This document shows positions 5,742 to 7,984 of a stretch of 39,342 bases of DNA, piece by piece. Position 1 is the stretch's first letter; each line of letters begins with the position of its first letter. The position numbers and the translations under genes were made by a program. Origin of the DNA: Gammaproteobacteria bacterium (GTDB lineage Bacteria; Pseudomonadota; Gammaproteobacteria; Eutrophobiales; Eutrophobiaceae); contig JAJRTU010000073.1 of assembly GCA_024278135.1 (NCBI GenBank), positions 1 through 39,342 on the forward strand, given 5' to 3'. The notes beneath the pieces were generated by a model. The model was not told the DNA's origin and ran no database searches. It was given only the letters and a program-made list of their open reading frames with translations.

Positions 5742-6251
5742 TTAACTGTTTTTCAACTTCAAATCTTTCAGTATGGCGAAGGGCCGTCGTCCGTCCCCAT
5801 TGTCTCTGTCAGGCGGCGGGGCCTGCGGGTGACACACATCTGTGTTGTGACTGGGTGCCAGAGGCAAAGCCAGTAACAACTCGTCTTCAAAAAATCGATG
5901 CAGTGATAATTTTCTGCCTGTCATTATCAAAGGTTCCAGCTTGCGGGGCAACTCCGCCACTTCATCTTCACTGGCAAGCAGGACGACATTCACAGAGCCC
6001 GCAATATCAACCCCAACAGGCTGCAAACAGCGCCGGCATTCCATACTCAGGCTCGTGCTGTAGCGACCGGATATACGAATTCGATTCTGCTCGTCCTTAT
6101 CGAAATGTAACTCGAACTGAATCGAAGCGGCATCATTGCACAACAAACCGTGTAAACCTTGCATGCCATTGATGTCCAAAACGCCCGAGATTTCCTCTCT
6201 TGACTCAGCAAGTCGCGCCGGATCGAAAAACTGCGGAGGGCCTGTTTGCAT
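5742..6251 (-). CDS. yceD: YceD/DUF177 family protein (23S rRNA accumulation factor)
   Basis: DUF177 protein. In E. coli YceD is reported to affect 23S rRNA accumulation, and in plants the family acts in rRNA processing. The sequence has MECRRCLQP in the middle, then the conserved [14 protein letters not shown], a histidine-cysteine element (HNTDVCH) and the terminal [10 protein letters not shown] chose the ATG at 6251, giving 169 residues starting [16 protein letters not shown], because homologues begin close to an FxDPxRLA segment. A TTG at 6290, behind AGGGGA, would give 182 residues. The ATG has no Shine-Dalgarno and lies directly downstream of a near-consensus promoter. Confidence 0.88.
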
Positions 6252-6261
6252 CAGGCGGGGA

Positions 6262-6290
6262 AGTTTAGCCACACATGGCAGTACTGTCAA
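6262..6290 (-). promoter_or_regulatory. Near-consensus sigma-70 promoter for yceD-rpmF-plsX
   Basis: On the minus strand, a perfect -35 TTGACA (6290-6285) is followed after 17 bp by TAAACT (6267-6262). A start site 6-8 bases past the -10 would fall only a few bases before the yceD ATG at 6251, so the transcript would have almost no leader. It faces away from maf, matching the divergent gene order. Confidence 0.6.
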
Positions 6291-6384
6291 AGAAATCCCC
6301 TGTTAAATTTTACGTTTAAGCTGTTGACTTGACAGGTTTTTACAGAATGTCATCATGCCGGGACAGCAAGCTGCTCATGAAATC

Positions 6385-6400
6385 GAGGTAAATACCCATT
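6385..6400 (+). promoter_or_regulatory. Ribosome-binding site and AUU start codon of maf
   Basis: GAGGT at 6385-6389 lies 8 bases before ATT at 6398-6400. An in-frame TAA at 6389-6391 rules out any earlier start, and no ATG, GTG or TTG occurs between it and the conserved LILASSSPYR. A four-codon reading frame, ATG AAA TCG AGG TAA (6377-6391), precedes it in the same frame. Confidence 0.6.
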
Positions 6401-6976
6401 TCCACATTAATCCTGGCCTCATCCTCGCCCTATCGGCAAGACTTACTCAGGCGTCTAAAACTACCCTTTCAGGTCATTTCCCCGGACATCGATGAGTTAT
6501 GCCGGACAGATGCATCCGCTCATGAGCAAGTGCAATACCTGGCCCGCCGCAAGGCCAGGGCCGTGGCGGCAAAGGCCGGCAATGCCCTGATCATCGGCTC
6601 AGATCAACTGGCGACCTGCAAGGGGCGGGTTTTGAGCAAACCGGGCAATCATGAACGTGCCAGGGAGCAACTGCAAAGCATGCGGGGACAATCGCTGCTT
6701 TTCCATACCGGTCTTTGCCTGTTCAATTCAGCAACGGGTGAAGACACAACGGAATGTGTGGAGTATCGGGTCTACTTTCGTCAGTATTCTGATCCGGAAA
6801 TAGAGCGCTACCTGGATGCTGAGACGCCCTACGACTGCGCGGGCAGTTTCAAGTCAGAACAATTGGGCATCACGCTGGTGGAAAAGATGGAAGGGCCGGA
6901 CCCATCCGCCCTGATCGGTTTGCCACTGATCAGTTTAGCCGCCATGTTGCGTCGGGAAGGCCTGTTATTACCTTAA
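6398..6976 (+). CDS. maf: Maf-family nucleotide pyrophosphatase, YceF type
   Basis: Maf proteins hydrolyse non-canonical or modified nucleoside triphosphates; the YceF branch prefers m7GTP. The full 192-residue protein starts (M)STLILASSSPYR, which holds the phosphate-binding SSSPYR. It continues with SPDIDE, GSDQL (Asp69, the same number as in E. coli YceF), KP, CAGSFKSEQLGITLVEKMEG and DPSALIGLPL. CAGSFKSE places it with YceF rather than YhdE. The start appears to be ATT. The first GTG, at 6530, would delete the first 44 residues, including the active-site loop, so it is unlikely. The gene is divergent from yceD and convergent with sppA. Confidence 0.9.
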   Translation: MSTLILASSSPYRQDLLRRLKLPFQVISPDIDELCRTDASAHEQVQYLARRKARAVAAKAGNALIIGSDQLATCKGRVLSKPGNHERAREQLQSMRGQSLLFHTGLCLFNSATGEDTTECVEYRVYFRQYSDPEIERYLDAETPYDCAGSFKSEQLGITLVEKMEGPDPSALIGLPLISLAAMLRREGLLLP

Positions 6977-7006: not shown

Positions 7007-7948
7007 TTATTTTAACTTGTAATTTAACATTGACTCCAGTTTGCTTGCCATACTGGCCCCAAGACTGCCGGCAAAACGATCCAGATAATTTTCCCGGTGG
7101 GTAAAATCGACAATATCTTCAGCACCTATCACTTCACGGGCAACGTAACCGGCGCTTCCCAGCGCATCCACCAGACCCAGCTCGATGGATTGTTCACCGG
7201 TCCAGATCAGTCCCGAAAAGATCTTGTCGTCCTCTTTCAGGCGGTCTCCGCGCCCCTGTTTGACCGTCGCAATGAATTGCTGATAAACATCATCCAGCAG
7301 CATGTCCACGTGTGCCAGATCTGCCGGTTTTTGCGGCGAAAAGGAATCCAGGAAGGCCTTGCGCTCACCTGCGTGTCGTACACGCCGCTCAATGCCCAGC
7401 TTTTTTATACTCTCAACAAAACCGAAACCGGACATAATGACGCCGATCGACCCGACCAGACTCGCTTTATTGGCATAAATCTTGTCGGCGGCCGACGCGA
7501 TATAGTATCCACCGGAAGCACACAGATCGCCGATAACAGCGTACAGAGGAATATCCGGATATTTCGTTCGTAAGCGTCGAATCTCATCATTGACGTACCC
7601 CTACTGCACCGGGCTGCCGCCCGGACTGTTGATACGGAGAATGACGCCGGCGGTATTTCTGTCCTCAAAAGCGGCGCGTAAACCGGAAGCGATGTAATCC
7701 GCATTGGCCTCGCTGTCTGCGGATATGACCCCATTGATATCGACCAGGGCCGTATGCTGACCACCGGCAAAGCCTGTACCCTGCCATTCCCCTGACAGGT
7801 AAATTGCCAGAAATGAAAATAAATAGACGGCCAGCAGGGATTTAAAGAAAATATTCCAGCGCCGGTGACTGCGTTGCTCCCGCAGAAACTCCCGGGCAAG
7901 CTGGTTGACCATCTTCTGCTCCAGTTGTGGATCACTATTGTCGTTCAT
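7007..7948 (-). pseudogene. sppA: Signal peptide peptidase SppA (short form), interrupted by an in-frame amber codon
   Basis: SppA is a membrane serine/lysine protease that degrades cleaved signal peptides. From the ATG at 7948 (preceded by AAGGTGAG) the frame has one transmembrane helix (about 32-53), a ClpP-like fold with INSPGGSPVQ, then TAG at codon 116 (7603-7601). The same frame then continues unbroken for about 197 codons: VNDEIRRLR, catalytic Ser145 in CASGGYY, SLVGSIGVIMSGF and Lys197 in GERKAF. Length without the stop (about 313) and the Ser-Lys spacing of 52 are normal. Both catalytic residues are after the stop, and no ATG or GTG occurs before them, so the gene is inactive unless the amber is suppressed or is a base-call error. 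There is no other lesion. Confidence 0.8.
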
Positions 7949-7984
7949 ATATTCACTCACCTTCCATCGGTGTCAAAGTGGATG

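Follow-up and report, generated by a model that had tools for sequence, protein, structure and literature searches.

The window, by which we mean the whole 39,342-nucleotide stretch of DNA analysed here, is contig C353 of genome G000, a fragmented draft of 3.74 Mb in 360 contigs that is 88% complete with 5.6% contamination and is apparently a metagenome-assembled genome (MAG). It carries a maf gene between sppA and a divergently transcribed gene that we take to be yceD-like from gammaproteobacterial gene order (Table 1). In profile searches the window Maf matched PF02545 (E = 1.8e-52), and it scored 169 bits against TIGR00172, where the cut-off is 117. Its best solved relative is E. coli YceF (4jhc; E = 1.4e-51), and its match to YhdE is far weaker (4p0e; E = 1.5e-22). 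A separate YhdE-like paralogue, 33% identical to the window Maf and with ATG at its start, is encoded on contig C243 of the same genome. Both the catalytic Asp and an N-terminal LILASxSPxR-like motif, here LILASSSPYR, are present in the window protein. By these sequence criteria the gene is a Maf of the YceF rather than the YhdE subfamily, and its substrate class is a predicted one. In sppA, an in-frame TAG occupies a position that is Ala or Ser in all 41 of the other family loci read, and is either a nonsense mutation or an assembly error.

Table 1. Features of the maf locus, in window coordinates.
Feature	Position	Strand	Remarks
yceD-like gene	5742..6290	-	divergent from maf; from the open reading frame list; homologues among the tree loci
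TTGACTTGACAG	6324..6335	+	putative; possible -35 region; found again ahead of maf in several genera, read by eye
Mini-frame ATG AAA TCG AGG TAA	6377..6391	+	four codons; not conserved, probably incidental
Shine-Dalgarno (SD) core GAGGT	6385..6389	+	8 nt before ATT; duplex energy -7.2; AGG kept in congeners
In-frame TAA	6389..6391	+	bars any upstream in-frame start; in-frame TAA also in G001
ATT (AUU) start codon	6398..6400	+	without canonical alternative; ATT in both congeners
maf (yceF-type, m7GTP pyrophosphatase family)	6398..6976	+	from ATT, 192 codons and a stop
Catalytic Asp69 codon	6602..6604	+	Asp of GSDQ, residue 69 counted from ATT 6398
sppA	7007..7960	-	in-frame TAG at 7601-7603

The window maf has no canonical start codon ahead of its conserved N-terminus

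From position 6377 the frame reads ATG AAA TCG AGG TAA, followed by ATA CCC, the ATT at 6398 and then TCC ACA TTA ATC CTG GCC. As an earlier note on this DNA had claimed, reading of the window sequence found no in-frame ATG, GTG or TTG from the TAA to LILASSSPYR; the earliest in-frame canonical codon is GTG 6530, which would give a protein of 148 aa with the conserved N-terminus missing. The note's further proposal, that ATT 6398 lies 8 nt after GAGGT and opens a frame of 192 residues whose Asp69 falls at the same number as in YceF, was borne out by the SD and by residue numbering; the available text of PMC3899018 gives Asp69 as the catalytic residue of E. coli YceF. The two remaining species of the genus (G001 and G002) also have an ATT at the equivalent position, which speaks against coincidence.

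These two congeners bear on two alternative accounts of the locus. The first is that a sequencing or assembly error has hidden an ATG at 6398 or created a false TAA at 6389. The window does come from a fragmented MAG with the completeness and contamination given above, and the neighbouring sppA has an in-frame TAG that the 41 other loci lack, but the ATT is repeated in two other assemblies, one of which (G001) has an in-frame TAA of its own, and AUH starts (H = A, C or U) are found in 28 further genomes. We regard the probability of such an error as essentially negligible; as the source of the ATT, it is contradicted by both congeners. The second account, raised in the earlier note, is that the mini-frame passes terminating ribosomes to the ATT and so assists reinitiation. 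The mini-frame is present in the window and stops 6 nt before the ATT, but its equivalent in G001 has no ATG and that in G002 has GTG and then no stop before the ATT, the conserved portion of this stretch being the AGG of the SD. As neither congener has a conserved upstream mini-frame, the suggestion was dropped as very unlikely.

AUH starts behind strong SD sequences are widespread in maf genes of the order

The comparison drew on 53 genomes of the host's family, which here make up the whole order. Using a criterion of E <= 1e-30, maf was detected in 48 genomes, and all 48 loci were read: in-frame ATG/GTG/TTG and ATT/ATC/ATA codons were listed back to a stop or for 20 codons, and SD strength was expressed as the energy of the duplex formed by the anti-SD and the stretch before the codon. 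An AUH start was assigned to 31 of the 48 genes (ATT 17, ATC 12, ATA 2) in 12 of 18 genera, and a canonical start to the remaining 17 (ATG 14, GTG 2, TTG 1). No canonical codon was available in 19 genes from 11 genera, and every one of these has an in-frame ATH after an SD-like stretch with an energy of <= -3.9 (<= -5.5 in 17). When the other 15 NNH codon classes were scored at -3.9, the best reached 11/19 (AAH) and the next 10/19 (CCH), figures that are uncorrected for base composition and relatedness. The other 12 AUH genes have a canonical codon in frame, but the SD of the ATH is better or equal, and their assignment is a judgement. Two loci may have mixed or canonical starts: L024 (G005), where a GTG lies two codons after the ATT with an equally weak SD (-3.0), and L015 (G050), whose ATC is followed three codons later by an ATG. 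In genus g10, the exact start codon could be either the ATC or the ATT that follows it.

A recognisable SD core was found in 30 of the 31 AUH genes, at a spacing of 4-9 nt. The SDs beside AUH starts are mostly strong and those beside canonical starts weak or missing, with a median energy of -6.6 for the 31 versus +0.3 for the 17, the best of which is -4.1 (Mann-Whitney p = 2.5e-8, indicative only, as the best ATH site was chosen per locus and the rows are related). The occurrence of ATT, ATC or ATA in relatives at a matching position relative to the SD strongly supports the earlier note's central claim that maf starts with AUU. Because 17 of the 48 members have a canonical start, the weak start is not indispensable.

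L008 (G046), alone in genus g4, lacks a good start of either the AUH or the canonical kind, and has an out-of-frame ATG just upstream; this break in the pattern of the genus may reflect an indel or a real change.

Coding constraint sets in at or close to the AUH codon

The remaining alternative for the start site, that the true start is a canonical codon upstream or internal to the gene (e.g. GTG 6530) and the AUH is incidental, was weighed against pN/pS computed over 11 AUH members of genus g4. The ratio was 0.77 for the 8 codons before the AUH in the same frame, 0.12 for the 12 codons starting with the LILAS motif, 0.31 for the 29 codons that follow and 0.22 for codons 46-185. Judged from these substitution patterns, protein-level constraint on maf sets in at or close to the AUH codon, so that an internal GTG start is in practice excluded. 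A mechanical open reading frame list does give GTG 6530 and 148 aa, and some relatives have an in-frame ATG, GTG or TTG further upstream; against this, changes in the N-terminal motif are mostly synonymous, hence the motif is translated, and the 19 members noted above offer no canonical codon ahead of the motif as far back as the in-frame stop (or for 20 codons). We consider a canonical start extremely unlikely. The lack of a canonical start, the conserved SD plus AUH and the coding constraint near the start all point to an AUU start of maf that is real, a conclusion that we hold with high confidence. Gene finders limited to ATG, GTG and TTG would trim such N-termini, here by 44 residues, to GTG 6530.

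Among the genes compared, infC shares this type of start

As controls, we turned to infC and pcnB, which the earlier note had named as examples when it described AUU starts as known in very few genes. We found infC in 42 of the 53 genomes; the 30 loci read all start with AUH (AUC 24, AUU 4, AUA 2), behind GGAGG-like SDs. Matches to pcnB were found in 52 of the 53 genomes, 47 of them over the family cut-off. Thirty pcnB loci were fetched and 20 read, the motif used having missed 10; an ATG or GTG lies near -48 in 19 of the 20, and one has neither. This one is L260 (G025, genus g13), whose pcnB frame is without ATG or GTG near the usual start. The rarity of such starts stood, but pcnB did not hold as an example in the host's order.

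An ortholog screen compared the open frames of G020:C1 (674 kb, of which 72 kb N) with those of the first 1.32 Mb of G019:C13. The 295 reciprocal best pairs were reduced to 208 by removal of overlapping, mostly antisense, pairs, and dropping weak pairs left 201 that were usable. In 194 of these, both genomes have a canonical codon no later than 8 codons past the aligned start. Of the seven flagged pairs, one is maf, flagged in both genomes, and one is infC, flagged in a single genome (the infC of the second has an in-frame canonical codon upstream of its AUA); the other five are explained by eye as alignments that extend beyond an ATG, as fragments, as weak internal matches or as lying at a contig edge. 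With these flags so explained, AUH starts among the 201 pairs from two genomes appear to be confined to maf and infC. A special initiator tRNA was considered and set aside, as two AUH genes do not require one; a scan of two contig stretches gave one tRNA-Met (CAT) on each.

All three g1 genomes (G000, G001 and G002) were searched for infC and rplT, and none yielded either gene. Loss of infC in this genus was also considered, but an assembly gap shared by the bins is probably likelier, given that the pheS tail lies at the edge of contig C45 of G000.

The AUH start may be old in the order

In a tree of four neighbouring proteins without Maf, the distinction between AUH and canonical starts requires 3 changes, and 7 third-base changes occur among the AUH rows. 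Adding Maf to the four neighbours raises the changes of the AUH label to 5, and a Maf-only tree gives 7; the latter is poorly resolved, with the g5 maf among the outgroups, and was set aside in favour of the neighbour-protein trees. As each of the order's three deep groups in the tree of the four neighbours plus Maf includes AUH maf genes, the data fit an old AUH origin with few returns to canonical starts, with a direction that the trees do not fix. Changes to AUG in place numbered 0, versus 7 among U, C and A, which is not significant by itself, and direct selection against AUG is not demonstrated by this comparison.

For the two g5 loci (L036 and L040), the concatenation of Maf with its neighbours places the genus with g2, unlike the Maf-only tree, and a horizontal replacement of maf in g5 is possible on these placements.

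These data also allow a reading in which the AUU is real but unregulated: little Maf is needed, a weak start is tolerated, and the codon drifts in a nearly neutral fashion among AUU, AUC, AUA and AUG. The 17 members on AUG, GUG or UUG are in keeping with this, as is the weak SD beside canonical starts, so that overall initiation might be weak in every lineage; the want of an in-place AUG among the 7 third-base changes also points this way, though without significance. However, a strong SD is retained beside the AUH in most of the 12 genera, which would be puzzling if initiation strength were irrelevant, and only infC shares the feature among the 201 screened pairs. We view drift of an unregulated start as a genuine possibility, albeit not the probable one.

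AUH maf genes are seen only in the host's order

Beyond the order we read 67 maf loci, of which 64 came from the 78 class-level genomes with a match and 3 were named loci; the 14 class-level genomes left out had weaker, partial or paralogue-like matches. All 67 have a canonical codon in frame, 66 of them within 20 codons, and L133 has an ATG at -21. Since a canonical codon is present in all outside loci, AUH maf is seen only in the host's order. Our searches of open-licence PMC papers turned up no report of a maf or yceF with an AUH start. To our knowledge, very few bacterial genes initiated at AUU, AUC or AUA are known, and from the sequences compared here maf would be a new, order-wide member of this small set.

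A close parallel within the order is infC, which encodes IF3 and starts with AUU in E. coli. Like maf it has an AUH (AUC, AUU or AUA in the order) behind a strong SD; unlike maf, it is autoregulated by its own product, whereas Maf is a nucleotide pyrophosphatase without a known role in initiation, and the maf SD is weaker than that of infC in the order (median -6.6 versus -9.3 or stronger). The pcnB gene of E. coli also reportedly starts with AUU, as Binns and Masters are said to have described in 2002. It resembles maf as an AUU gene outside the initiation machinery whose start is thought to keep expression low; in the host's order pcnB differs from its E. coli counterpart in having ATG or GTG, and the AUH is on maf instead. 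Elsewhere, the available text of PMC13009471 describes a conserved AUU start of cvfC1 and AUA start of ccpN/infC with extended SDs in S. aureus, and an output of cvfC1, ccpN and citZ of ~10% of that from AUG in poor medium. The cvfC1 (AUU) and ccpN (AUA) starts resemble maf in their AUH codon, strong SD and cross-species conservation, but they concern other genes in another phylum, and in the same text initiation at them was located by ribosome profiling and quantified with reporters. Streptomyces sigR, as presented in the accessible part of PMC5472188, is likewise a gene other than infC with a non-canonical start; its start is GTC rather than AUH, and repression by IF3 is experimental for sigR and inferred for maf.

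A weak, IF3-responsive start would keep Maf output low

The explanation we favour, and consider very probable as a whole, is that maf is translated from AUU 6398, which should give a low output with an IF3-type response, and that this arrangement is old in the order. The initiator tRNA pairs with the first two bases of AUU, leaving a mismatch at the third position. The SD GAGGT would set AUU 6398 in the ribosomal P site; the third-position mismatch would make initiation inefficient, and the strong SD would compensate in part. Maf output would be low, rising when IF3 discrimination is low and falling when IF3 is plentiful, as for infC. Over time AUU, AUC and AUA interchange with the SD retained, and lineages on AUG carry a faint SD or none and mostly start elsewhere.

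Beyond the start itself, we infer inefficient initiation, sensitivity to IF3 and a benefit of low Maf, and the Maf level is probably low and adjustable. The benefit is suggested by filamentation at many gene copies, from which, in the available text of PMC3899018, Maf took its name in B. subtilis, where the protein is YhdE-like; the same text reports that the nucleotide pools measured in E. coli were unchanged on overexpression of YceF. As far as the accessible part of PMC5472188 goes, IF3 discourages initiation at codons other than AUG, GUG and UUG, and infC is autoregulated via its AUU; infC fidelity mutants of E. coli are reported there to increase initiation at non-canonical codons 3- to 15-fold. 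By analogy with infC, pcnB and sigR, and with the infC start type in the order, repression of maf by IF3 is likely.

More speculatively, maf and infC might form a small IF3-sensing translational regulon in the host's order, an idea that we put forward tentatively and think rather unlikely. If it were true, IF3 that is scarce relative to ribosomes would raise AUH initiation and hence Maf together with IF3, and through the regulon the removal of methylated nucleotides that arise in RNA turnover would be coupled to the condition of the initiation machinery. An order-wide AUH housekeeping gene outside that machinery is a natural experiment on how weak starts are maintained, of which the drift among all three AUH codons with their SDs kept is a part.

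An element resembling TTGACTTGACAG was also seen by eye upstream of maf in genera g6, g10, g11, g13, g15, g16 and g18. The ATG of maf in g11 and g15 follows this element at such a short distance that, on this reading of the sequence, the maf mRNA may be nearly leaderless.
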